From: Rugalucina vietnamica
Lineage: Eukaryota; Mollusca; Bivalvia; Lucinida; Lucinidae
DNA: 64,000 bases
Direction: 5' to 3'
NCBI GenBank assembly: GCA_964017185.1
Contig: OZ024877.1
Span: 5,434,006 to 5,498,005, forward strand
The position numbers were made by a program, and so were the translations under genes. How positions within the stretch are numbered: the first letter of the stretch is position 1; each line of letters opens with the position of its first letter. The notes under the pieces were generated by a model that made no database searches, had not been told where the DNA came from, and worked only from the letters and a program-made list of their open reading frames with translations. Shown here piece after piece: positions 41,226-63,335 of this stretch.

Positions 41226-43014
41226 TGTAACGGGATAGTCTCCCTTGTAGAATACGTTGGTGCAACGTATTAGCGGCATATTAGCGGGTAGTAATATGCA
41301 AATTAGAAACTTGAAACTTTGTGATTAGAGTAAGTGTTAGGTATATAGCGCAGTAAACCACCCTTGGTGGATGAGCATGCTTTTCCACCGACGGGGTTTC
41401 TGTGGCTTGGTTCGGCCGAACGTTACATTTGGTATAGCAATATAAGTCTACTATCCACAAGAAATGCAGTGGAATCAAAGGCCCCTTACGCCCTGATCCT
41501 GATTTCAGATGTGCTCGATGTCTGGGAAAGGCACGTCCAATAGATGGAAGACTAGTGAAGGAGGTTCAGGTTGATGACGAAACAGTTGAGGCTGTTCCAG
41601 AGTTCTGTTATCTAGGAGACATGCTTTCTGCTGGTGGTGGTTGTGAACTGGCTGCAGTTACGCGTTGCAAATCCGCTTGGGGCAAGTTCCGACAGCTACT
41701 CCCCCTCCTCACCAACCGCAATCTGCCACTTTTGACCAGAGGTCGAGTGTATTCAACTTGTGTGAGAAGTGTAATGCTGCATGCGGCAGAAACATGGGCC
41801 ATGACTGTGGCTACACTTAACCGCCTACGGCGCAATGACCGTGCGATGATCCGCTGGATCTGTAATGTCAAGGCGAATGATGAAGTAAGCTCAGACTCCC
41901 TTCTCTCAAAGCTTGGACTCCAGGATATAGATGTGGTGCTTCGCTCCAGCAGAATGAGATGGTATGGACACATAGAGCGCAGCAAAGGCTGGATTGCTCA
42001 AGTACGCAAGCTAAACATAGTTGCACAGAAAAGATCTGGCAAGCCAAGAAAATCATGGGATGAAGTGTTGTTAGACGACAGAAAAAAGCTAGGAATGGAT
42101 ACTGCTGATCCTCAGAATCGCTCAGAGTGGAGAGGTCGTCTAAGAAGGAGACTTGTCAAACAAGTCCAACCCTCAGTAGAGGACAACGGACTATAAAACG
42201 GATATGATGATGATGATGATGGTGGCAGCGGTGGGATGATGACAACTGCCAGAACGGAGTTGCCTTACCCATGTAGTCCCCAGGCCAAGACTCGGGGCGA
42301 GTCTTCTCGGAGGGGGAAGTAATGTAACGGGGATAGCCTCCCTTGGAAATATGCAAATTTCAAAACTCGAGACTTTGTGAATTGAGTAAGTGTTAGGTAT
42401 ATAGCGCAGTAAACTACCCTTGGTGGATGAGCATGCTTTTCCACTGACGGGGTTTCTGTGGCTCGCCTCGGCTGTTCGTTACATTTGGTGGCAGCGGTGG
42501 GATGATGACAACTGCCAGAACGGAGTTGCCTTACCACTGTAGTCCCCAGGCCAAGACTCGGGGCGAGTCTTCTCGGAGGGGGAAGTAATGTAACGGGGAT
42601 AGCCTCCCTTGGAAATATGCAAATTTCAAAATCGAGACTTTGTGAATTGAGTAAGTGTTTGGTATATAGCGCAGTAAACCACCCTTGGTGGATGAGCATG
42701 CTTTTCCACTGACGGGGTTTCTGTGGCTCGCCTCGGCTGTTCGTTACATTTGGTGGCAGCGGTGGGATGATGACAACTGCCAGAACGGAGTTGCCTTACC
42801 CATGTAGTCCCCAGGCCAAGACTCGGGTCGAGTCTTCTCGGAGGGGGAAGTAATGTAACGGGGATAGCCTCCCTTGGAAATATGCAAATTTCAAAACTCG
42901 AGACTTTGTGAATTGAGTAAGTGTTAGGTATATAGCGCAGTAAACCACCCCTGGTGGATGAGCATGCTTTTCCACTGACGGGGTTTCTGTGGCTCGCCTC
43001 GGCTGTTCGTTACA
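41226..43014. mobile_element. Miniature LTR element in a tandem array (4 LTRs) with LINE sequence inside
   Basis: LTRs at 41226-41427 (diverged), 42323-42483, 42589-42748 and 42854-43014, each TGTAACGG to CGTTACA. They are separated by 105-bp internal pieces with a primer-site-like TGGTGGCAGCGGTGGGAT and a purine run GGAGGGGGAAG. The whole block is flanked by ATAC (41222-41225 and 43015-43018), so it entered the LINE as one unit or expanded there. There is no gag or pol of its own, as in TRIM elements. The last three LTRs are nearly identical (recent expansion); the first is older-looking. Confidence 0.75.
41445..42205 (+). pseudogene. Captured LINE fragment (RT C-terminal region)
   Basis: A frame open from about 41445 to 42196 reads HKKCSGIKGPLRPDPDFRCA, RCLGKARPIDGR, FCYLGDMLSAGGGCELA, then RVYSTCVRSVMLHAAETWAM and ICNVKANDEVSSDSLLSKLG. 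This is the region after the RT core of LINEs of the FCYLGD type, 5'-truncated. It ends in a (GAT)n tail. The first 25 bp before it copy a stretch of the host LINE (40974-40996). Confidence 0.65.
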
Positions 43015-44101
43015 ATACAAATTTCTCCTCAAGAATCCGAGAGTTCTGTTAGCCTTTGTACAAACATTGGAAATATGAGTATTCCATTTCAAATTATTTG
43101 TGATAGTTACACCCAGGTATTTTATGCCTTCAACGTTTTCCAGTACAGTGCCCTCAAGGGTGTAGTTAGCCTGTATCTTACTAGACCGTTTATTTGTCAG
43201 CTGCATCATATTGCATTTGACGGGTTGAAATCTCATTCCCCATTTCCTAGCCCAACTGCCTAAACGATCAATGTCTCTCTGAAGTTTCAATGTATCCTCT
43301 TCATTCTTGATTTCACGATAGAAAACACAATCATCAGCAAAGAGTCTTATTTCAGACTCAATGTCTGCTGAGATGTCATTTATATACAAGGAAAACAGCA
43401 AGGGGCCGAGAACGGTGCCCTGAGGGACACCCGACACAACTGGAGCCCAATCCGATTTAATACCATTTACCACTACCCGTTGTTGTCTGAAACAAAGGAA
43501 AGCATTTATCCAACTCAGTGTTGTTCCACCTATTCCATAGCTAAACAAATTGCTTTTAAGAAGTTCATGGGGGAGGAGTATCGAAAGCCTTTTCAAAATA
43601 CAGTATAAAAATGTCAACCTGGCCTTTTTTGTCTAAGATTTTTGCCCAATCATTTATCACCGTAGTCAACTGAGTTTCACAGCTATGCCATTTCCTAAAT
43701 GCGTGTTGCCTATCTGACAGGAGTTCATGTTCGCCATAATATTTCAGCATACAATATGTTCAAGAAGCTTACAAGGAATGCATGTCAAAGAAATTTAACA
43801 GGGCGGTAATTGCGGGAAAGAGACCTGTCACCCTTCTTAAACAGAGGGCAAATATTAGCAAGAGACCATTCTTTAGGAATTTCAACTGTATTGACTGCTG
43901 GAACAGATGGGCGAATACCGGACCTAATTCCATTGCCAGTTCCTCTAGGACTATGGGATGAAGCTTATCAGGCCCTAAGGCTTTAGACGGGTTAAGACCT
44001 TTAAGAAATTTGGTCACCCCTTCCTTTGTGACCACAATATCATGCATGAACGGGGCAGATCTATTGTTGCTTCGAAATTTTGTCTTTCGATGTTTTGTCA
44101 T

Positions 44102-45663: not shown

Positions 45664-45819
45664 ATGGCTACTGCAGATGAGTTTGCTGGTTTAATGCCCA
45701 TTGAGAAAGGAGACGGATACCAATGCCCTTGGGAGAAATGGAAACGTCCTGGTGCATTAGACCTTTTGAAATGGAAATTTCGTACAAAAGATAACAGCAA
45801 AGTACCAACAAATGAGCAG
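45664..45819 (+). CDS. NAPEPLD: NAPE-PLD exon with the first Met
   Basis: 52 codons, [20 protein letters not shown], then [20 protein letters not shown], to the donor CAG-GTTAAT. The W-x-x-W-x-x-P and LLKW features match the human NPWPTWKNPS and VLRW region. The ATG follows an acceptor directly, so an upstream 5' exon must exist. Confidence 0.85.
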
Positions 45820-48800
45820 GTTAATAAAAGCAAATATAACAAATATATTTGTTTTTGTATTTCAAGTAAATTCCTCAATTCTCATGAATTATATTAAATC
45901 TATTTATTTTATTTTTATCTTTTTTTATTAAGCCAACCATTAGGGAAGCAACAAACACACATAAAACATCTTTTAAATTATGTGCCGCGACGTGAGAAAA
46001 CCGGATTTTTGCCTATATAGATGCGAAAACAAAGGCGCAGATCAGCTTCGTGGTAACCGCGAAGCTGATCAGCGCCTTTGTTTTCGCTACACGGATAGTA
46101 CAATTTCTCTTCTTCTTAAATCCGAAATTTTAAGCTTCAAGCCTGCTTCTGTGACTGTACAGGCCGGTTAGTGTCATACCTGGTCAGAAACCCCGAAGAC
46201 CGGTTTTCTTGCGTCACGGCTCTTATCATACAAGGTTTAGAGATATATTTAGAAACCTCTGACCTTGACCTATATATATCGGACTGCCTTATCTGACGTT
46301 CAAAAAAATTATTTGATTACGAAAACTTGCCCATGCAATATACAGTGATTTTTAAGGTTGTAAAAAATGTAAATTTTGATTAATGTTCAGTAGAAAATTT
46401 TCGATATTTTTCTTATTTTTGCTCAAAACATAGATTGTGAGTACCCACAATCTATGTTTTGGAGCAAAAATAAGAAAAATAGGTATACCCCTGCATACCC
46501 CAGTTTTGCTATATAAAAGTGGGGTTCAAGGGGCTGGGGGTATACATTACACGGACATGTTTTCGTGATGATTTCTACTACTGTGAGATGAAGATGAATT
46601 GAGGACATTCATTAAACCTGTTTCAGTTTACCCATTTCAGGTACTAGATAAAGTTCTTCCACTGATTGGAATAGACAGAGGGAAACTTGACCAGCCACCG
46701 AAGGACAAAGTACAAGTGATGTGGATAGGCCATGCAACAGTTCTCGTCCAGTTTGATGGTATCACTGTCCTCACAGACCCAATATTCAGTGATATCTGCG
46801 GGCCAATTAACTATGGAATGTCTGAACAATGGGGGTTGTTCGGCTATAGAAGATTTAGACCACCGTCATGCAAAATTGCAGACTTGCCGAAGATTGATGC
46901 TGTAGTGATCAGTCATGATCACTATGATCATTTAGACAAGCCTTCCGTAATTGAATTGAATGCAAAATTTCCACAGCTACATTGGTATGTGGGTAAGGGG
47001 TTGAAGAAATGGTTCACGCAGACACAGTGTAAGAATGTGTATGAACTGACATGGTGGGAGAAGAAAGAATTGATGCTGGGAGAGAAAAAGTTTGAGTTTG
47101 TTTTCACACCAGCACAGCACTGGTGTGGGAGAGGGGTTAGAGATGAGAATAAGGTAAGATGTTTCATGAGAAAATCTAAAATCTGTCTACTCGGTTTCTT
47201 ACCAGTACAAATCTATGGGATGGTTTTACCAAACCCCAATTAACGGTATCCGGACAAAATCCCCCCCCCCCCCCCCCCCCCCCCCCCTATTAACATTTCA
47301 AGGAGTATCAGAAATAATTATGCCCCCAACTTTGCCCCCAACTTTGAAAAAGTTGGAAGGGCATATTGCTTTCGGCTTGTCTGTCTGTCTGTCTGTCTGT
47401 GTGTCTGTCTGTGTGTTAACATTTGAATGGTGAATGCTAGGGTTTTGAAATTTCATATGCACATTCCTCATGAAAAAATAGTTGACCCGTATTTTTTTTC
47501 ATGTCCGAGTTACACCCCTTTTCTGAGTTATGTCCCTTTGAAAACAAAATTTGAAAATCTTGTGTGCAAGATATCTCAAAAAGTATTTAAGCTAGAGCCT
47601 TCATATTTGGTACACTTGTTGGGGCTGAGGAGTAGATGACCTGATTAACTTTTGAGAACTTTCCGTCAAATTTTTACAAAAATACGGTATTTTGAAATTT
47701 TGATTGATTTTTCCACTTTTCGGTGAAATTTGAAACTTTTGAACGGTGAATGCTAGGGTTTTGAAATTTCATATACACATTCCTCATGATAAAATAGTTG
47801 ACCCGTATTTTTTTGTATGGCCAAGTTATGCCCCTTTTTTGAGTTATGTCCCTTTGAAAACAAAAATTGAAAATCTTGTGTGCAAGATATCTCAAAAAGT
47901 ATTAAAGCTAGAGCCTTTATATTTGGTTCACTTGTTGCGCCTGAGAAGTAGATGACCTGATTAACTTTTGAGAACTTTCTGTCAAATTTTTACAAAAATA
48001 CGGAATTTTGAAATTTTGATTGATTTTTCCACTTTTCGGTGAAATTTGAAACTTTTGAACGGTGAATGCTAGGGTTTTGAAATTTCATACACACATTCCT
48101 CATGATAAAATAGTTGACCGTATTTTTTTGTATGGCCAAGTTATGCCCCTTTTTTGAGTTATGTCCCTTTGAAAACAAAATGTGAAAATCTTGTGTGCAA
48201 GATATCTCAAAAAGTATTGAAGCTAGAGCCTTCATATTTGGTACATTTGTTGGAGATGAGAAGTAGATTACCTGATAAACTTTTGAGAACTTTTCGTCAA
48301 ATACAGAATTTTGAAATTTTGATTGATTTTTCCACTTTTCGGTGAAATTTGAAACCTTTGAACGGTGAATGATAGGGTTTTGAAATTTCATATACAGATT
48401 CCTCATGAAAAAATAGTTGGCCTGTATTTTTTTCATGTACGTGTTATGCCCCTTGTTGGAATAATGTCCCTTTGAAAACAAATTTTGAAAATCTTGTGTG
48501 CAAGATATCTCAAAACGTATTTGAGCTAGCTAGCTAGAGCCTTCATATTTGGTATGCTGGTTAGGGCTGAGAAGAAGATCACCTGATTAACTTTTGAGGA
48601 CTCTCTGTCAAATTTTGACAAAATTACTCCATTTTTAAATTTTTACTTCATTTCTAACTCGCCTGCAAAAAAGCTTACATTCTGTTGGTGCATACTAATT
48701 GCCGGGAATGTCCGGGAAGATATGGTCGGGATGTATAGGGTAATGGTGGTTCGGGCTTTGTTTCTCCTTTAATGTTTAACAGAATTTAATGATTTTGGTA

Positions 48801-51800: not shown

Positions 51801-54800
51801 ATCAAGTTCTGATAGATATTAAATGAGATACAAAGCTAGAACCACCACTACCCCCTTCATCCCGACCATATCTTCCCGGACATTCCCGGCAATTAGTATG
51901 CACCCATTCTGTTTCTGGATCGAGGTCAAAACAGACGCAACCGAACAGCTTCTTCAGGAAATTAAATTTGACTGCATTCGAATGAAATAAATAAATCATA
52001 CAAATTGCCAGTTTAGGGACAAGCATACAGTTGGGGGCATAGTGAAACATTCAAATGTTAATTATTTTATTCCTTACAACATAGGCATAGTTCATATGGT
52101 TTGATCATTATCTAGTACTGAGCCACATCATGAGAAAGCCAACATTTTGCATATGTGAAAACAAAGGCGCAGTTCAGCCTCGCAGTAAATGTGAAGCTGA
52201 TCAGCACCTGTGTATTCACTACGGTGATAGTACAGTTCCTCTTTTTTCTTTGTCTAAAATTTCCAGTCTCTAGCCATTTTCTGTTCTTGAACAGCTTGGT
52301 TTGTGTCAGACCTATTTGAAAACCACATTGTTGGTTTTTTCATGACACGGCCCATATTTATTTCAGGTATTATGGGGCAGCTGGGTAGTGAAGGGTCCTA
52401 CAAAGTCATTCTTCTTTGCTGGAGATACAGGGTATTACCAACCAGTATTCAAAAAGATTGGTGAGAAATTTGGACCCTTTGATCTTGCAGCTCTTCCTAT
52501 TGGTTGTTATGAACCAAGGTAATTATTTCATTTGATGGTGTGTTATATGTTCACTCGTAAATTTTAAAATATACATAATACGTAGGTTGTCAGGAAAGTT
52601 CATAGACACCGTTAATATTTTCAACAGGAAAAGAAATGCATTCAATATGAATATATTTGGGTTTGCGAAAATATTTCATGAACAAATAGATGAAATTTTA
52701 TGAAAATCTGACCAGCACGGCATGTTCTACAGCCTTTTATGTGCACCTCCCTGACCTGAGGCGGGGCAAGGGTCAACGTCACAGTGACGTTATATGAAGT
52801 TTATTGCTGTCAGTGTTGTAACAAGTTCAACCGATGTTTCAGAGTTTTTCCACATAGATTCCTTGGATATCGGTACATTTCTATTTAAGGTGTCTTTGAC
52901 TTTGATTCCAATTCTTCACAGCATAAGACGTGAAAAACTGGTACCGATTCTTCACATCTAAGAAAACTCATACCAGTTCTTTACAGATAGGATGGATGTG
53001 TTCCATTTCTTCACACGTCAAAAACACTGAATCGTCACGTGTGAAAATTGGTACCATTATCTCGCATATGAGAAATATGCATGCCAGTTCTTCATAGATG
53101 AATACATACTAATTTTTCACATGCCATATCATAAAAGTGTGAAATTCAAGTATAGATTACTAACCCCTAAAATTATCGAAATTAAATGGTCGCAAATGTG
53201 ATATTTCTCAAATGTGACATATTGGTACCAATTCTTCACATAGGTGCAAAATGTGAAATTGCAAAATGTGAAATTTGCGGTTCAACAAGATTTTGCAGCT
53301 ATTTCTATAGTTTTTTAGCTCACCTGAGCGAAAGGCTCACAGGAGAGCTTATAGTATACCCATGCTCCGGCGTCCGTCGTCTGTCCGTCGTCCACAATTT
53401 CAAAGATCTTCTCCTCTGAAACCGCTTGGCCAATCAAAGCCAAACTTCATGTGGAGCATCCTTAGGAAGGGGGAACGAAAGTTTATATAAATGGTCCAGG
53501 TCACATGACCAAGATGGCCGCCATGGCTATAAATAGCAAAAACCTTTAAAAATCTTCTTCTCCAGAACCAGTGGGCCGATTTCCACGAAACTTGGTATGT
53601 AGCATCGGGGATTCTTATATAAATCATGACCCTAGGATGACCTTGACCTATTTTACGGCAAGGTCAACTTAGGTCGCCAATGCATTTGAATGGGAAAAAA
53701 TGGTAAAATGCTATTTAATGGGTAAAACTTACTGGGAATAGGCAAATGGACAGAAGATTAATGTTAATGGAAAATTTTAGCCCCTGGGGGGTTGTCTGCC
53801 CCTGCCCCTGCCCCATATACATGTATATATCTATAATAATGAAACATCTTCTCCCCTGAAACCGCTTGGCCAATCAAAGCCAAACTTCATATGGAGCATC
53901 CTTGGGAAGGGGGAGAGAAAGTTTATATAAATGGTCAAGGTCACATGACCAAGATGGCTGCCATGGCTATGAATAGAAAAAACCTTTAAAAATCTTCTTT
54001 TCCAGAACCAGAAGGCCAATGATTTTGAAACTTGGTGTGAAGCATCAGTGACTGGAGCTCTACAAAGTTTATATAAATCATGACCCTCGGATGACCTTGA
54101 CCTATTTTACGGCAAGGTCAACGTAGGGCCCTCATGCATTTGAATGGGAAAAAGTGTTAAAATATTATTTGTTGGGAAAAACTTGCAGGAAATGGGCAAA
54201 TGGACTTAAGATTGATGATTCTGAAAAAAATTAGACCCCAGGAGTCTGTCTGCCCCCAGCTCCGGTTAGTATACATGTACATGTATATTACAGAGATATT
54301 CAAAGATCTTCTTCGCTGAAACTGCTTCGCCAATCAAAGCCAAACTTTATGAGGAGCATTGTCAGGAAGTGGGAACGAAAGTATATATAAATGGTCAAGG
54401 TCACATGACCAAGATGGCCGCCATGGCGCCATGGCTATAAATACCAAAAACCTCCAAAAATCCTCTTCTTTAGAACCAGAGGGCCTATGATTTTGAAACT
54501 TGACATGAAGGATCGGGGCGAGAAGTTCTATAAAGTTTATATAAATCATGACCCTGGGATGACCTTGACCTATTTTACTGCAAGGTCAACATAGGTCAGC
54601 CATGCATTTGAATGTAGAAAAGTGTTAAAATGTCATTTGAAGGACAAAACTTGCATGAAATTGGCAAAGGGACTGAAGTTTTATGATTTGAAAAAGAAAT
54701 TGACTCCAGGGGTTGCTCTGACCCGGCCCTGGGGTTATATACATGTACGAGCGTATATTACCATTCTAGTCAAACAAGTTTATTGGTATATATTTCAGGT

Positions 54801-57800
54801 TTCAGGTGAGCGTTTACAGGACCATTGGTCCTCTGGTTTTCAGTTCTATAGGCTGTGTTGGTTGCCTTAGTGCAATATAACACTAAAATATATATTTTGT
54901 TGTAAAACTTTTATAGCTTTAGGTGTTTGAAGTATTCCGATTATCGGAAAAGATGGCGTGACGTCATCAGCCAGCATCCGGGTCACTCTCACGGGTACAA
55001 ATCCGTAATGGCGGCTTTATTAAAAGCCAATATACGTAATATTTTATTTGCACAAATGACCCAAAACGCCCAAATCTTTAAAAGTTTGTTGTGTAATGAT
55101 GAAAGATTGTTTCCAGAATGCATGTATTTATACCCCCCGCAAAACGAAGTTTTAGGGGGGGGGGTATACTGTTTTCAGCCTGTCCGTGATTCCGTAATTC
55201 CGTGATTCCGTGATTCCGTCATTCCGTCAACATTTTGACATCTTTGCTAAATAACTTAAGTAGTTTTTGCCCGATGTTCTTCAAATTTTCAACACACCTG
55301 CACCATTAGACAACTCATGTGTGGTATGAATTTAGGGGCCAAAGGGTCAGTTTTGCATGAGTTATGGGACTTTTTAAATCTATACATAGAATGTTTGCCA
55401 TAGTGCTAATAGTGCATACTTTGTGAAATCAACTCCTCCTACAGCTTTCAATATTCTCTTTTGATACTTTGCAGATACGTGCCAGAGATATTGAAGATAT
55501 GCATGAAGAAGTATTATGCTGAAAAAATGAATTTTGACAAATATACAGTATTTTGAACTTAGCCAATTTGCGATAATTGCCATATTCAATAATGGTTGGT
55601 TGTGCATAGTTTGTGAAATCAACTCCTCCTAGGGCTTTCAGTATTTCTTTTCAATACTTTGCAGACATGTTCCACACATATTGAAGATGTGCATGAAGAA
55701 TTATAATGCTGAAAAAATAATTTTTGACAAATTTACAGCATTTTTCAACATAGCCATTTCTTGACCATTGCTTATATACAATACTGGTTGGTAGTTCATA
55801 GTTTGTGAAATCAACTCCTCCTAGGGCTTTCAGTATTTCTTTTCAATACTTTGCAGACATGTTCCACACATATTCAACATGTGCATGAAGAATTATAATG
55901 CTGAAAAAATAATTTTTGACAAATTTACACCATTTTTTAACATAGCCATTTTTTGACCATTGCTTATATAATGGTTGGTAGTTCATAGTTTGTGAAATCA
56001 ACTCCTCCTAGGGCTTTCAGTATTTCTTTTCAATACTTTGCAGACATGTTCCACACATATTGAAGATGTGCATGAAGAATTATGATGCTGAAAAATTAAT
56101 TTTTGACAAATTTACAGCATTTTTTAACATAGCCATTTTTTGACCATTGCTTATATACAGTAATGGTTGGTAGTGCATACTTTGTGAAATCAACTCCTCC
56201 AATGGCTTTGAGTATTTCTTTTCAATACTTTGCAGACATGTTCCTCACATATTGAAGATGTGCATTAAGAATTATAATACTGAAAAATTAATTTTTGACA
56301 AATTGACAGCATTTTTTAACATAGCCATTTTTTGACCATTGCTTATATACAATAATGGTTTGTGAAATCAACTCCTCCTAGGGCTTTCACTATTTCTTTT
56401 CAATACTTTGCAGACATGTTCCACACATATTGAAGATGTGCATGAATAATTATAATACTGAAAAAGTGATATTTGACAAATTTACATCATTTTTCAATAT
56501 ATCCATTTCTTGACCATTGCTTATATACAATAATGGTTGGTAGTGCATACTTTGTGAAATCAACTCCTCCTAGGGCTTTCAGTGTTTCTTTTAAATTCTT
56601 TGTAGATTTGTTCCAGATATATTTTAGATGTGCATGAATAATTTTCATGCTGAAAAATTAATTTTTGCCAAATTTACAGCTTTTATTTAACTTAGCCAAT
56701 TTTTACCATTTCTCATGATAAACAAAGATCATAGTGCATACAGTGAAATCAACCTCAAGCTTTCAATATATTCTTTTCTTTTAATATCTTATAGATGTAA
56801 CTGGCATACTGGGGATGTACATGAAGGATTATAATGCTGAAAAGATATCTTTGACAAATTTTCTGCATGTTTGACTTAGGAAGTTATTGGCCAGCTTCAG
56901 ATAATTTTGCGGGGGGTATACTGAAAGCCTTGCTTGCAGCCAATTTCTAGTTTGAATTTGGAAGGAAAATATCGTGAATAGCGCAATATTTCCGTGTTTA
57001 TTTATAGTTAAAAGCGGGCGGCTTTGATTTCGTTTTATTTAACATGCACACACTTTCAGTCACTGCTGTCTCGAATTACATTGAATTTTTTATGACAATT
57101 TTACACTGTCAACATAGTATTTCTGCTGTCATTTTGTAGGATCTGTTTTTGGAGGAAACATATTTAAGATTTTAAATAACATATCGGCCACACACGCTTG
57201 GATTTTAAAACTCCAACAACTTCAACGACACGGTTATTGTACATTTCTATCTATTATCATATTAAATAATAATAATTACAAAATAAAATCGTGAAATATA
57301 AGCTGCCGTTAGATAAAAACAAATCTAGAAAAATGTGAGCTGAAAATAATGATGCATAATTGAAAACATTGGATAAAGTTATCCAATTACATGCAACTCT
57401 TTCTCTAGATCATTCAGTTTTCTCAGTTTAAAACAAACCTTGCCAGAATAATTTTTCAGACAGATGGCGGATAATTCTTTTTCAGTGGTTCTTATATTAA
57501 GTTATTTTTTTTTAGTTAATTCATCATTCTTTGATTTCAACGAATATTTACAATTTAAGACATATTTTCCCGCACAAATATGTGTATTAAGTCTGTGTAT
57601 TTATTGACTCTGTACCCGTGAGTTCACAGGTAAGTTATCGATGACGTCATCGCCATCTTTTCCGATAAGCGGAATACAAACATTATACTTGCTGTTTAGA
57701 TACACTTTCTGTTTATTTTCATATGACATATTTGGATGCACTAACCTTTTGCCCTTAATTACTTCTTTTTACATAGTAGGCAAATTATATTCAATAGAAT

Positions 57801-59043
57801 ATTAAGTGAGCTGAATCAAAGAAAGTTGCAAAGAAAACAATTTGCATAGAAAATATTTTGATGTCAGAGTACCGTAATGGTTGCAAGATTTTGTACCCAA
57901 ATTTAAGTCTGGCATGTCCTTCTCTCTTTACCAAATTGCAACAGTCATTTGATCAGCCCAGGAATGTAACTATTCCTTTCATTCATATACTACTTGTTGT
58001 GGCAAATTGTGCACGCCTTGTCACAATTTGTTATGTTATATAAGCTGCTATTAAATGTATGCTTTTTACAGATGGATTTTAGAATATCAACACTCAAGTC
58101 CAGTTGAAGCTGTGAAAATTCACCAAGACACATTTTCCATGTTTTCTATAGGGATGCATTGGGGCACATTTAAAACAAGTGCCTGCGAGGTATATGTGCT
58201 GCATAGTTACATTTTACTGTTTTATTGATAAGGCCAAGATATAATATATTTGTGGCTGTCCAGTTCTCTACCATATTCAAAAAATTTGTATGTTGAGATA
58301 TAAATTTACATAAGACAATATTATGAATATATATAATATAGTTCAAGACATTTTTAAAAGACAGGTGATGAACGAAATTGCATTAGCCAGCGCTATAGAA
58401 GAAAGCAGGAACCACATATTTATTTTTATTTGGCCTTACAAATGTTTGCTGTTGCTAGCCTATGTTCATGGTCTTGAGAGGTGGTGGAATAATATGTATT
58501 TACAATAAGTCATGATTTTGTTGGCATGCTTTTGTTTTAAACAGTTGATTTGGTTTATTTTAGGGCATTATGCTGTTGTTTGGATAGTTTCTCGATTGTG
58601 ACAAGTACATGCTATTTTATGTTTTAGACCAGTTTTATTCAACTATTTTGTTGAAATATTTACTGTCCCCCCACAAACATCCCTATTTTTAATGTTTAGG
58701 TTTATTACAATTTGATTTGTCAGGAAAATGTGGATCCCTGGCTCATCTTCAAAATGATGAGTATAGTTTGCTAGCCATGCAGTGAGTATCAGTTCCTGTT
58801 TTAGTACAGTTTTTGTCACAGAAAGAAACACAAAGTATTCAACTGTTGATACTTTTCTACTAAAACGAAGGGCAACTATCTCTGAAAATCCTTCATGTCT
58901 GAGTCTTGCCTTATAAAATGTATTTCAGGTACATAACCAAATACCAACACGTTGACCCTGAAGAAGCAGTGAAAATTCATGCTGAAGTCAACTCGCAATA
59001 TTCCATAGGCATCCACTGGGGATCCCTGGTTATGACTAATGAG
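45664..59043 (+). CDS. NAPEPLD: NAPE-PLD-like phospholipase, exons present (3' end missing)
   Basis: Exons 45664-45819, 46641-47153, 52367-52518 and then either 58072-58189 or 58929-59043; all junctions are GT-AG and phases agree (0, 0, 2). NAPE-PLD is a membrane-associated metallo-beta-lactamase-fold enzyme that splits N-acyl-phosphatidylethanolamine into N-acylethanolamines (anandamide and relatives) and phosphatidic acid. Visible family features are [21 protein letters not shown], the zinc motif [41 protein letters not shown] and the last ligand in HWG. The exon coding the human-like end after ANE is outside the window. Whether 45664 is the true start or an internal Met is open, because an acceptor (TTATTTTAG) abuts it. 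Confidence 0.9.
45984..46222 (-). mobile_element. MITE-A hairpin element, copy 10
   Basis: Reverse orientation in NAPE-PLD intron 1. Central palindrome intact: AACAAAGGCGCAGATCAGCT, then TCGTGGTAACCGCGAAGC and the complement. Ends GCCGCGACGTGAGAAAAC and GGTTTTCTTGCGTCACGGC. Confidence 0.82.
46315..46570 (+). mobile_element. MITE-B hairpin element, copy 3 (best preserved)
   Basis: The terminal inverted repeat is roughly CATTACGAAAAC(A/T)TG(C/T)CC, with the partner ACGGACATGTTTTCGTGATG. At the centre TTTCTTATTTTTGCTCAAAA and CATAGATTGTG face their complement across five bases. The right half carries GGTATACCCCTGCATACCCC and AGTTTTGCTATATAAAAGTG. Four copies in the window (13264, 28509, 46315, 62098). 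Confidence 0.8.
46641..47153 (+). CDS. NAPEPLD: NAPE-PLD catalytic exon (zinc motif)
   Basis: 171 codons, [10 protein letters not shown] to GRGVRDENK, between the acceptor CCCATTTCAG and the donor AAG-GTAAGA. It contains [10 protein letters not shown], the HxHxDH zinc site (SHDHYDHLD) and the next zinc histidine in AQHWC. A MITE-B copy ends about 70 bp upstream of it. Confidence 0.92.
50091..50530 (-). pseudogene. LINE 3' tail fragment
   Basis: On the minus strand the sequence ends CCTTTCGGAGTTCTGAATAA, then AATTCTGTTCTGTTCTATTC, a polyadenylation signal followed by a short tandem tail as in LINE 3' ends. No coding part remains. Confidence 0.5.
50541..51085 (-). pseudogene. Penelope-like element, 3' fragment
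   Basis: Inverted match to about 39540-40095 of the full element: CGGTCCTCGTGGTGAATCTC, GAAGCTCCGGCCCCAGCCAA, GACGCCCGACCCACCGGCGT and CCCTCACGTAAAAGCGTTTT. It keeps the last part of the RT frame and the 3' tail; the rest is absent. Confidence 0.75.
52120..52355 (-). mobile_element. MITE-A hairpin element, copy 11, abutting a splice acceptor
   Basis: Ends GAGCCACATCATGAGAAAGC and GGTTTTTTCATGACACGGCC. The last base is about 11 nt before the NAPE-PLD exon at 52367. The central palindrome is worn. Confidence 0.78.
52367..52518 (+). CDS. NAPEPLD: NAPE-PLD exon with the bridging Asp
   Basis: 152 bp, [20 protein letters not shown], then [20 protein letters not shown] and [10 protein letters not shown] plus two bases of Arg, to the donor AG-GTAATT. 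GDTGYY holds the zinc-bridging aspartate. Its acceptor lies only about 11 nt after the end of a MITE-A copy. Confidence 0.92.
52519..53315. other. Intron sequence with a cluster of TTCTTCACA motifs
   Basis: Between about 52905 and 53250 the motif (C/A)AATTCTTCACAT, often preceded by GGTACC, recurs about nine times in both orientations. GGTTGTCAGGAAAGTTCATA near 52584 recalls a mariner-type end, but no partner was found. Confidence 0.35.
53316..54836 (+). mobile_element. HINE-3 element, copy 2
   Basis: Starts TAGCTCACCTGAGCG, has GTCCGTCGTCTGTCCGTCGTC, three units of about 450 bp (CTTGGCCAATCAAAGCCAAA at about 53426, 53866 and 54326), the subterminal repeat TCAGGTGAGCG, the hairpin AGGACCATTGGTCCT and CTGG-T. 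Opposite orientation to the copy at 19062-20586; located in a NAPE-PLD intron. Confidence 0.78.
54932..57677. mobile_element. TIR element with CRE-bearing ends, carrying HINE-2
   Basis: The left end is GTATTCCGATTATCGGAAAA, then GATGGCGTGACGTCATC. The right end, in reverse, is GTATTCCGCTTATCGGAAAA, then GATGGCGATGACGTCATC. Similarity continues to CTCACGGGTACA on both sides (about 75 bp). No target duplication or transposase found. Confidence 0.65.
55130..56950 (+). mobile_element. HINE-2 element with repeats of about 187 bp
   Basis: 5' TATACCCCCCGCAAAA forms a hairpin with TTTTAGGGGGGGGGTATA. TTCCGTGATTCCG repeats follow, then seven to eight units starting TTTGTGAAATCAACTCCTCC (from about 55420 to 56550), then the subterminal repeat TTTTGCGGGGGGTATA and a terminal CTAG-T. 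The 3' hairpin is weak. Inserted in the TIR element 54932-57677. Confidence 0.72.
58072..58189 (+). CDS. NAPEPLD: NAPE-PLD alternative exon A
   Basis: One base completing Arg plus 39 codons: [20 protein letters not shown], then [19 protein letters not shown]. Acceptor GCTTTTTACAG, donor GAG-GTATAT. It keeps the zinc histidine (HWG) and the YQH start but has HSSPVEA where exon B and human have HVDPEEA, and is one codon longer than B. Confidence 0.8.
58929..59043 (+). CDS. NAPEPLD: NAPE-PLD alternative exon B
   Basis: One base plus 38 codons: [20 protein letters not shown], then [18 protein letters not shown]. Acceptor ATGTATTTCAG, donor GAG-GTACTA. Same length as the corresponding human segment ([14 protein letters not shown] to HWGTFALANE, from memory). 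Same entry and exit phases as exon A, 739 bp upstream. Confidence 0.85.
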
Positions 59044-59576
59044 GTACTACTTACAGTACAGTTGTCGCGATGCTTTGAGCGATCGCGCAACGCGCATAAA
59101 ATTTTAATCCCTTCTAAAAACGTTTTGCGAGTGACTCGCGCGTCACTCGCGAGTCACGCGAGTGACGCGCAAGTTTTACGTAATACAGTTTGCGAGTGAC
59201 GCGCAAAGTTCTTTTGGTTCGTCGCGCATCGCGCATGGATCTTTGCGCGATGCTCGACGTGATTCATCGCACTATAACATTCAAGTATATGTTGTTATAA
59301 AAAGTATTTGTAAATAACTCCTTTTTTGCCTAGTTTCAACGCTTTTTTTAAATGACGCTCAATTTAACTACAATTACATGTACGTTTGGCTTTTAATCAA
59401 TTGTTTTGTCCTTTATGTTTGGGACTACTTCGGACAGTCCTTTATGTTCGGGGCTATTTCGGGCATAAAAAAAACAACAACAAATAAAACAATTAACTTG
59501 TTCACTGTGAAGTACATGCTAGCCAATTAGCCAGGCTACTGTTTGACAGTGAGTTGGTATTAGTCAATCATCAAAA

Positions 59577-61730
59577 TTGTTTGAATTCAATTCAATTCAG
59601 TTCAATAGTTTATTTGAGTCTCATGTTGATATACAATATACATACAATTATAAACATAAAACACTATGAAATATATCAACCCAATCTATATAGAATTATA
59701 AGAGACTATCGTTGGCAAATATCTAAACATTATACATACATATATAAATATAAAACAGATGAGCACTATTTCAACGAGTAGCAGGATACTTCAAAACGTA
59801 TTGACATAACCTATATACATCAGAATGTACAAGAGGCAGAGCGCCTGTGGCGGAAACCGGTGTCCAGACAGCAAGCGCTCTGCCTCGAAAATGTTCCGAC
59901 AAGGACATATTCGTAGCTTAAATCTAATCTAATCTTGCAATATCAATATTTATGTACATAAGGTACTTAACTGTACAAAAGAAAAGGAAACAAAAATAAA
60001 TTGGCCTTTCTAAACAGAAAAATATAAAATGCCTACTAAGGTGCTTCTAGCGTCATGTGGCTAACGCAAGGTCATAGTTCACAGCAACCGAATGCACAGT
60101 TGGTGCAAAAACCACCAGCAATGCACACAGAATATGAACTTGAAGATTTCGTTTTATTTACACAGATGTACAGGTTACTGTGAAAAAAAAATAGCAGTGA
60201 CATCACAACATGACACTTAAAAATTGTACTTTACAGGGTATCTGTACATATAAATGCATCGTACATAATATGGTACAGTTAAAATGAAAGCAACACAATA
60301 GCTTGCGTGCCCCACACCGCCCACACTCGGGGCCCGAAACCCAGCAATTCTTGTATAAGAAGCTATAAAACCACAGAGCAAAAGGAGTGCGTCGAGAAAC
60401 AGTCTTATAGGGGGTGGTCCTACAAAGGTCGTTCCCAACACACACCCCGTCTGTAGTTTAAGAAATGACAAGAAAACGTATACTTGTGCAGAGATACGGA
60501 CACACGAGCGCGTGCGATGCATGACACACAATCTATTGTGTATTAACACTTAATTACAATTACAAGACTTGTGTTATTACCAGTAATATATACAAAATCA
60601 ATGATACAGAAGTGTGCGTCTTCTTTCTAAAATTAAGTGACAGGTTTTGGCACTCGCCTTTGCTACTAAAGGATTCGACAGAATGAAGGAAAGTTTATCT
60701 GTATCAGAGAAACCATCAAAATCAATAGATAAATTCCTAATTTCATCAATTAGATTATTTCTCAATGATTCGTATATTGGACATTTCAATATAACATGCA
60801 TTTCATCTTCAACGGTATTGCAGCAGTGAAAACACTTCCTATCGCTTAAAGACGAACCATTGTAACGACCTGTTTCTAAGGCAATGGGGGCCGTACCACT
60901 TCTGAATTTCGCAAGGGCGCTACGATGACTACGATTAAAGACAGTTTTGCAATAAGTCTCGACTTGAAAGGTCTGTTTAAAAGTTTTGTAGGTTCTAAGT
61001 TTATTCCCGCCATTTCCTGTACGCGATTCATCTCTATTTACATCAGTTTGCCATTGGTCGATGAACTGTTGTGTAATTCTTGGTAAAATTGTATCTAACA
61101 TATATTTTACATTAATATCTGCAGCTATATCACAAAACTCCTCGGAGTCAAAATCTGATAGCAGTTTACATATTCTGAAATTCCAGTTTTTGCATCTATT
61201 TCCAGACTTATGATTGGACCAACAGAAAACCTTTTTGTTTAGTCTATTATTTTCCATTTTTACACTCCGGCACCAAAATTTTAGAACTGATTTCCAACAT
61301 TTTGTTGTAACTGGCGTCCAACCAATATCCCCAGTTACTGCTGCGTTTGGGGTATATCTTCCAACATTAAGAAAGTATCTTGCTGCTCTGTTCTGAACGG
61401 CATGAATGCATTTAAAGGACTGTGTGCCCCAAATGGAAGCACCGTACGAGACAGGAAAAACCATTGATTCGTATAATTTAGTAAATGCATCGTACTGAAT
61501 CCAAGGACTGCGCGACGATTTTGGCAGTTAGTGCATAATCAAGATGCTCGGAGAGTACTAAACCTAAGTATTTATAGTTTGAAGCGTATTCGACTGTTAC
61601 GTCGTTGACTTTGAAGACGAAGTTGGATTTATTTACAGAGGGATTGCGGAAGTGAACAATATTTGATTTAGTTGTGTTGATAGACAACTTATTAGTATAA
61701 CACCAATCGCCCAAAGCATTAAGCATAACA
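59577..61730 (-). mobile_element. LINE, 5'-truncated, minus strand
   Basis: Upper part (61726-61478): LGDWCYTNKLSINTTKSNIV and NYKYLGLVLSEHLDYALTAK, the end of an RT domain. After one frame change, 61464-60598 gives a 288-codon frame with YGASIWGTQSFKCIHAVQNR and a zinc-like C-FHC-C...H...C (CFHCCNTVEDEMHVILKCPI). The 3' end has CAAATAAAC and an ATTGA-type tandem tail (GAATTGAATTGAATTC) near 59577-59600. A hairpin GGCAGAGCGC/GCGCTCTGCC lies in the 3' UTR. Confidence 0.75.
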
Positions 61731-62560: not shown

Positions 62561-63335
62561 AAGCCTGAGAAAAGGATTTCTTTGTTTAAATGAAAATTCA
62601 TCTCCATACGTGTATTTGGGATAGCTAAGCTTCTGTTTACACTATTTTCTTCTCATTATTTAGATAAAAAACATACAGTGTATCAATTTTCCTTCGGGTC
62701 AGACGAATATTCTACATGTACATGTATCTCTAGCCCAGTTGCTTTGTACTACCTTTGTACGAAGCATATCTACATGTATTAAGTATGAATACTTGGAGGG
62801 ACCAGACAATAATCGATGCAATCAAATTTGACATACATGTTGACATCAGGCGGGCATGAAAATTCAACATGAAACGTTTTTTACAACACACCTTACGAGC
62901 AAGATTGTTTAAATTGTATAAATCGCGCATATCTGATTCACGTCGCGCGTTTGGTAAATCGAGATGATCGCGCAAGATTGCGCGAAGTTTGCGAGTGACT
63001 CGCGAGTCACTCGCGAGTCACTCGCAAGTAAAGATAATCCCCTACGCGCAACCACGCGCAACGCGCAAATGCGCGTACGCTCAAAGCATCGCGACAGCTG
63101 TACTGTAATTGTTTCAACATTTTCAAGTGATGTTCAAACAAAAAGACCAAATTAACTGTTAAAATTCATTCTTTCAAACAAAAATTGAAGTTCCTGGAAT
63201 GTTGAATATCAAATGGTAAAAACTCCAATCTTCTCTTTGAGACTTTAAATCTGGGTCTGTCCTTTATGTTTTTAGACATTTTGCCCAGTTACTTAGATAC
63301 ATGTAGATTTGTTATTTGTATCAATCATTGTTTTT

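Follow-up and report, generated by a model that had tools for sequence, protein, structure and literature searches.

A probable pair of mutually exclusive, tandem-duplicated internal exons in a NAPE-PLD gene of a bivalve genome

Results

A NAPE-PLD-like gene with two candidate versions of exon 4

The window, i.e. the whole stretch of 64,000 nucleotides that was analyzed, belongs to a genome of 1.09 Gb in 47 contigs and carries a NAPE-PLD-like gene on its plus strand, the terminal exon of which is located beyond the end of the window. The gene and its neighboring repeat comprise the following features:

45664-45819, plus strand: NAPE-PLD exon 1, the first coding exon of the gene model (MATADEFAG...), open frame, donor CAG/GTTAAT, phase 0
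46641-47153, plus strand: NAPE-PLD exon 2, encoding the metallo-beta-lactamase core, in which QHW and the metal motif HDHYDH are found; Pfam PF12706
52367-52518, plus strand: NAPE-PLD exon 3, VLWGSW...GDTGY...GCYEPR, phase 2 at its end
58072-58189, plus strand: NAPE-PLD exon 4 version A, 118 nt, 1 leading nt completing Arg (AG/A) and 39 codons
58190-58928, plus strand: intron between A and B, 739 nt, GT...AG
58929-59043, plus strand: NAPE-PLD exon 4 version B, 115 nt, 1 leading nt completing Arg (AG/G) and 38 codons
59052-59585, no strand assigned: copy of a high-copy repeat, its shared border falling on intron base 9 downstream of B
+65624-65830 (L016:1624-1830), plus strand: NAPE-PLD terminal exon, outside the window with its start 1.6 kb past the window end, starting in phase 0

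The start codon of exon 1 and its join were picked by fit to the N-terminal part of the human protein. The protein read from exons 2, 3 and B (278 aa) matched human NAPE-PLD (4qn9) with an E value of 7.6e-86, and the only other match to a solved structure up to 0.001 had an E value of 6e-4. When the exons were joined, both isoforms scored well above the cut-off for the Pfam family Lactamase_B_2 (130.6 bits for the B isoform and 125.1 bits for the A isoform). The part shared by the two isoforms contains HDHYDH, QHW and GDTGY, and H343 (human numbering) is present in both A and B. H253, D284 and H343 are residues that we take to be further metal-binding positions of NAPE-PLD, with H343 acting as a zinc ligand. 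The HxHxDH motif is named for the NAPE-PLD family in excerpts of PMC13392021.

Two NAPE-PLD genes were found in this genome, the window gene and a second one on contig C7 (L015; G000:C7:11259000-11268900), in which the exon corresponding to A and B is present in single copy and has the same phases. Over 188 upstream sites, the C7 gene shares 118 with the human protein and the window gene 109; the sequences suggest that the window gene is the more diverged paralogue of the two. Apart from the coding exons, the window contains two tandem arrays in the intron preceding A (53399-54748, three copies of a 468-nt unit; 55410-56710, approximately seven copies of a 192-nt unit) as well as long open frames on the minus strand (42796-43632 and 60598-61527), which appear retroelement-like by eye.

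Reading frames of the joined exons

A first-pass annotation of this DNA had described A and B as homologous, phase-matched exons of which only one can be used at a time. What was stated there on their coordinates and phases, on the GT-AG borders and on the open frames was confirmed: both exons have acceptor phase 2 and donor phase 0, both are flanked by GT-AG introns, and their lengths are one codon apart (118 vs 115 nt). They are neighboring internal exons, with exon 3 upstream and a single terminal exon, which begins in phase 0, downstream. The criteria applied for mutually exclusive exons were those of PMC3228551, as given in an extract of that paper; they concern length, splice-site types and frame, homology, a neighboring internal position, and the presence of only one of the pair in any transcript.

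Joining the exons with A alone yielded a reading of 381 aa and joining them with B alone a reading of 380 aa. In contrast, the reading including both A and B ran into a stop after 321 aa, located within B at 27 nt from its start and 88 nt from its end, and the reading that skips both exons reached a stop after 283 aa, which is located in the last exon. Since the single-exon readings are full-length and the two others are broken, the frame argument of the first-pass annotation is right. A productive transcript would take one copy only; the succession of phases (2, the completing base, 0 and 0) would permit A or B alone. For the double form, decay is expected on the basis of the 50-nt rule: as its stop is located 88 nt before the last junction, the mRNA should be degraded, and this decay would act as proofreading. 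The form skipping both exons carries its stop in the last exon and thus need not decay, having no obvious decay trigger; it could give rise to a truncated protein of 283 aa without His343.

Homology of A and B

A and B are identical at 19 of 38 aligned residues (50%). A genome-wide protein search with A, considering E values up to 10, returned three places: besides the query exon, these were B, with an E value of 5e-6, and the equivalent exon of the C7 gene, with an E value of 2e-5. In addition, the introns of the gene were scanned in a manner similar to WebScipio, collecting candidates that consist of an AG, an open frame and a GT with the right phase and a length within 5 codons of B, and these were scored against B using BLOSUM62. 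A obtained a score of 96 and the next independent candidate a score of 8, as compared with a best score of 27 when 60 Markov-random sequences of 19.8 kb were treated in the same way. The homology of A and B asserted at first pass is borne out by these values: with its matching phases it is far beyond chance, and chance is excluded.

No further copy of exon 4 beyond A and B was detected by the scan of the gene's introns. Comparison of the introns flanking A with those flanking B, covering 600 nt on each side, revealed similarity at chance level, besides self-overlap of the query and one match of 17 nt that falls within the exons. As the flanking introns are alike at chance level only, the exon duplication should either be old or have diverged fast.

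Position of the swapped segment in the enzyme

The exchanged segment was located using a bacterial homologue (L019), of which a folded model with a mean pLDDT of 92.4 was obtained with 32 of the 80 loci of the alignment described below. These 32 loci were hand-picked: from 34 first chosen, L095 was removed owing to a stop codon and L093 was left out, too. The best solved match of the model is again 4qn9 (E 6e-32; TM 0.96 by model length), and according to the alignment H198, P201 and H220 of the model correspond to H321, P324 and H343 of the human protein, respectively. On this bacterial model the swapped segment equals human residues 315-352, and exon 4 comprises most of the short helical turn 314-317, the loop with H321, the helix 324-334 and, running up to H343, the strand 339-342.

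The location at the active site, which had been claimed for the segment from the outset, agrees with the bacterial model. Likewise, the final zinc histidine (H343) is retained in both versions as had been noted, whereas the contrasting motif does not lie beside it: it belongs to the loop with His321 and to the start of the helix, which are not adjacent to H343 in sequence. As HxHxDH, QHW, GDTGY and His343 are kept in both forms, the A form and the B form should both be active metal hydrolases. Since the segment holds the His321 loop, the helix and the strand to His343, as placed on the bacterial model, exon choice should tune the rim of the active site.

Probable constraint on A in comparison to B

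Bacterial homologues were fetched by patterns located outside exon 4, and of the 588 relatives that were confirmed, the best 80 were used. Residues are present in the exon 4 segment in 79 of the 80 aligned homologues. Among the 12 columns conserved in at least 80% of them, 10 are retained in A and 7 in B. One extra codon is present in A, and whether A matches at E352 hinges on the placement of this codon. H321 and H343 are kept in A, in B and in 79/79 bacterial homologues. At W315, T346 and F347, which are common to human and C7 and are kept in A, B alone departs, having Y, S and L, respectively. Conversely, K318, V322, D323 and I342 are kept in B, these positions being occupied by E, S, S and M in A. 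Scores against the family profile were 57.4 bits for A, 75.6 for B, 100.4 for the C7 exon and 103.5 for human, i.e. A is the lowest of the four animal copies, and both A and B are below 83.7 bits, which is the ninth-lowest score of the 80 bacterial rows building the profile.

These differences bear on the possibility that A has recently gone out of use or is rarely used, being a once functional alternative exon that is no longer spliced in and that owes its intact appearance to the short time since its loss. We consider this unlikely, although several observations are compatible with it. The profile score of A is below that of B, and A has more private amino-acid changes than B (7 vs 4 with human as outgroup, 7 vs 3 with C7 as outgroup). 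The nucleotide changes assigned by parsimony to the A branch are close to evenly distributed over codon positions 1, 2 and 3 (6/6/9). In the codon model, omega of the A branch was 0.16, and the likelihood ratio test against an omega of 1 did not reject neutrality (p=0.21; 38 codons, 3 sequences, branch length at bound); a single omega for all was not rejected either (p=0.46). However, the frame of A is intact, 10 of the 12 most conserved residues are kept, and the splice-site scores of A are above those of B (see below). Moreover, simulated neutral drift almost never reached the score of A, and only a fairly recent loss would fit this outcome. Starting from the inferred ancestor and introducing 36 changes, 26% of 4000 runs remained stop-free, and 0 of these 1022 stop-free runs reached 57.4 bits (mean -13.8, sd 15.0), with an ancestor that is assigned the base of B at three-way-different sites and a simulation free of indels. 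Drift from B reached the score of A in 0/1405 runs with 26 changes and in 0/803 runs with 52 changes, and drift from C7 with 25 changes did so in 3/1445 runs. From its sequence, we read A as an exon under constraint that is somewhat looser than that on B, and by its looks relic status appears unlikely.

Splice sites and repeats next to the exons

Splice sites were scored using a generic position matrix that is based on general frequencies and is not mollusc-trained. With this matrix, A obtained 7.82 for the acceptor and 4.07 for the donor. The acceptor of B scored 0.38, a value matched by 40% of the AGs in the locus, and its donor (GAG/GTACTA) 2.65; for the corresponding exon of the C7 gene the values were 6.65 and 9.17, respectively. 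Good splice sites had initially been ascribed to both exons, which by these scores applies to A but not to B.

The high-copy repeat downstream of B was analyzed by scoring 40 of 426 candidates in the genome. In 28 of the 39 other copies scored, the repeat starts at the base equivalent to 59052, in 9 it starts 1-3 bases earlier and in 2 later. In a one-strand alignment, to which 17 of 29 repeat copies could be aligned, 9 of the 17 start at 59052 and 12 of the 17 end at 59585. Intron bases 1 to 8 after B are untouched by the repeat. Given the splice-site scores and the repeat border at intron base 9, the weaker borders belong to B and not to A. The repeat itself contains palindromic GAGTGACTCGCG-like units, and the intron after B holds a second, inverted copy near 62990-63121, i.e. 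approximately 3.9 kb further downstream. Inverted repeats, which were considered for intronic pairing as a means of exon choice, do exist in the form of 37 pairs; among the 25 listed, the longest one near B involves the high-copy repeat.

The weaker borders of B raise the alternative that A is the main working exon and that B is losing ground, in which case transcripts would mostly use A. This alternative, which we regard as improbable, would account for the site scores of B (0.38/2.65 vs 7.82/4.07 for A, generic matrix), for the nearby repeat border and for the residues W315, T346 and F347, at which B is the deviating copy. However, the overall family score of B is higher than that of A, B is the copy that keeps K318, V322, D323 and I342, the matrix behind the site scores is generic and of non-mollusc origin, and the repeat spares the first 8 bases of the intron. 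Very improbable, and the least likely of these alternatives, is that A is no alternative exon of this gene but either remained from a tandem duplication of the gene or forms part of another transcript: the two NAPE-PLD genes show that gene duplication has happened in this genome, but exons 1, 3 and the terminal exon have one significant match each within an 84-kb stretch, exon 2 has one match on the contig of the window, and A is located inside the gene on the same strand and with matching phases.

Discussion

The reading that we consider likely is that one of the two NAPE-PLD genes contains A and B as internal exons which arose by tandem duplication and are used in a mutually exclusive manner. 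Judged by sequence, the two are very likely a pair of alternative exons and probably mutually exclusive ones. As the gene has two alternative copies of an active-site exon, the animal can probably make two versions of the NAPE-PLD enzyme. The choice between them would likely be made by competition of the stronger sites of A with the weaker sites of B, as ranked by the generic matrix, with tissue or condition modulating the outcome. Exclusion of A and B by crowding was rejected, as the intron between them is too long with 739 nt. Incompatibility of U2 and U12 sites was rejected as well: the five introns of the gene are all GT...AG, and their donors are by eye unlike the U12 donor consensus.

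If transcripts confirm the exon choice, one gene would give rise to two NAPE-PLD enzymes that differ only in a loop, a helix and a strand. The differing segment would surround two conserved histidines of the active-site region, and the two forms would provide a natural pair for finding the residues that set substrate or rate in an enzyme making anandamide-type lipids. In agreement with the first-pass annotation, which knew of no such report, we found no report of a mutually exclusive exon in NAPE-PLD among the open-licence papers listed.

As to the substrate, the yeast protein Fmp30p is instructive. According to excerpts of PMC13392021, Fmp30p is a relative of NAPE-PLD that has a conserved catalytic core and uses another lipid substrate: it hydrolyses phosphatidylinositol, no NAPE activity could be measured for it, and it acts as a restraint on ubiquinone synthesis. 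For human NAPE-PLD, expression in E. coli is described there. As its substrate differs, homology alone does not settle the substrate, and its action on phosphatidylinositol indicates that a change of substrate is possible within the family (PMC13392021, in the same excerpts). Fmp30p is, however, a separate gene product as described there, whereas A and B are predicted splice forms. N-acylethanolamines are present in bivalves, and in a mussel both NAPE and NAE increase after death, as stated in a section of the review PMC7924210. One may speculate that exon choice switches the lipid substrate of one NAPE-PLD gene with oxygen or stress, in parallel to a coq-2 exon switch in this genome (see below), but we assign little probability to this idea. 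If it were true, one form would produce N-acylethanolamine signals, the substrate of the other would be a different phospholipid, as is the case for Fmp30p, and one splicing programme would run a lipid-signalling switch together with a quinone switch in animals living through anoxia.

A tandem exon pair that swaps a segment of an enzyme's active site is of a kind already known from coq-2. As described in excerpts of PMC7434440, coq-2 has two mutually exclusive homologous exons (6a/6e) in molluscs, annelids and helminths, the swapped part is believed to make up the tunnel that leads to the active site, and deletion of one or the other exon in C. elegans changes the quinone that is made. The NAPE-PLD pair is similar to it in consisting of two homologous internal exons of an enzyme. 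Two differences emerge from the same excerpts. First, for coq-2 both the splicing and the quinone change have been demonstrated, by transcripts and by C. elegans exon-deletion strains, unlike for NAPE-PLD. Second, the coq-2 copies are reported to be exactly equal in length, whereas the NAPE-PLD copies differ by one codon. The genome containing the window also has a UbiA-family gene (G000:C7:41299001-41313900, minus strand; L148, L149) in which one exon is duplicated; its copies are 52% identical over 46 aa and can both be read as 131 nt with equal phase. We call this gene coq-2-like from its UbiA match and its exon pattern, i.e. its identity is putative, and the duplicated exon resembles the pair published for coq-2 of rhodoquinone-making animals (PMC7434440, excerpts); its presence is compatible with a mollusc, an annelid or a helminth as source. 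Taken as a control within one genome, the coq-2-like pair is similar to the NAPE-PLD pair in divergence (52% vs 50%) and in design.

A further comparison is offered by exon 10 of the oyster alternative oxidase, which, like the NAPE-PLD pair, is a tandem-duplicated exon of a bivalve metalloenzyme. Its copies are used alternatively, with the first-copy form being favoured on air exposure, and the first copy is more diverged near functional sites, the second being closer to other taxa (PMC5589949, in the portion consulted). At the two alternative oxidase loci of the genome analyzed here, which are approximately 1.3 Mb apart on opposite strands (G000:C12:24810108-24813943 and 26063712-26074501), a duplication of the last exon did not appear in the family search. 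In the oyster, the exon is terminal and contains stop codons, and one form carries the second copy and one both copies, whereas the exons of NAPE-PLD have an internal position and are constrained by the reading frame (oyster data from the same portion of PMC5589949). If the reading of A and B as a mutually exclusive pair is true, NAPE-PLD would join coq-2 and alternative oxidase as enzymes that are reportedly varied in molluscs via duplicated exons.
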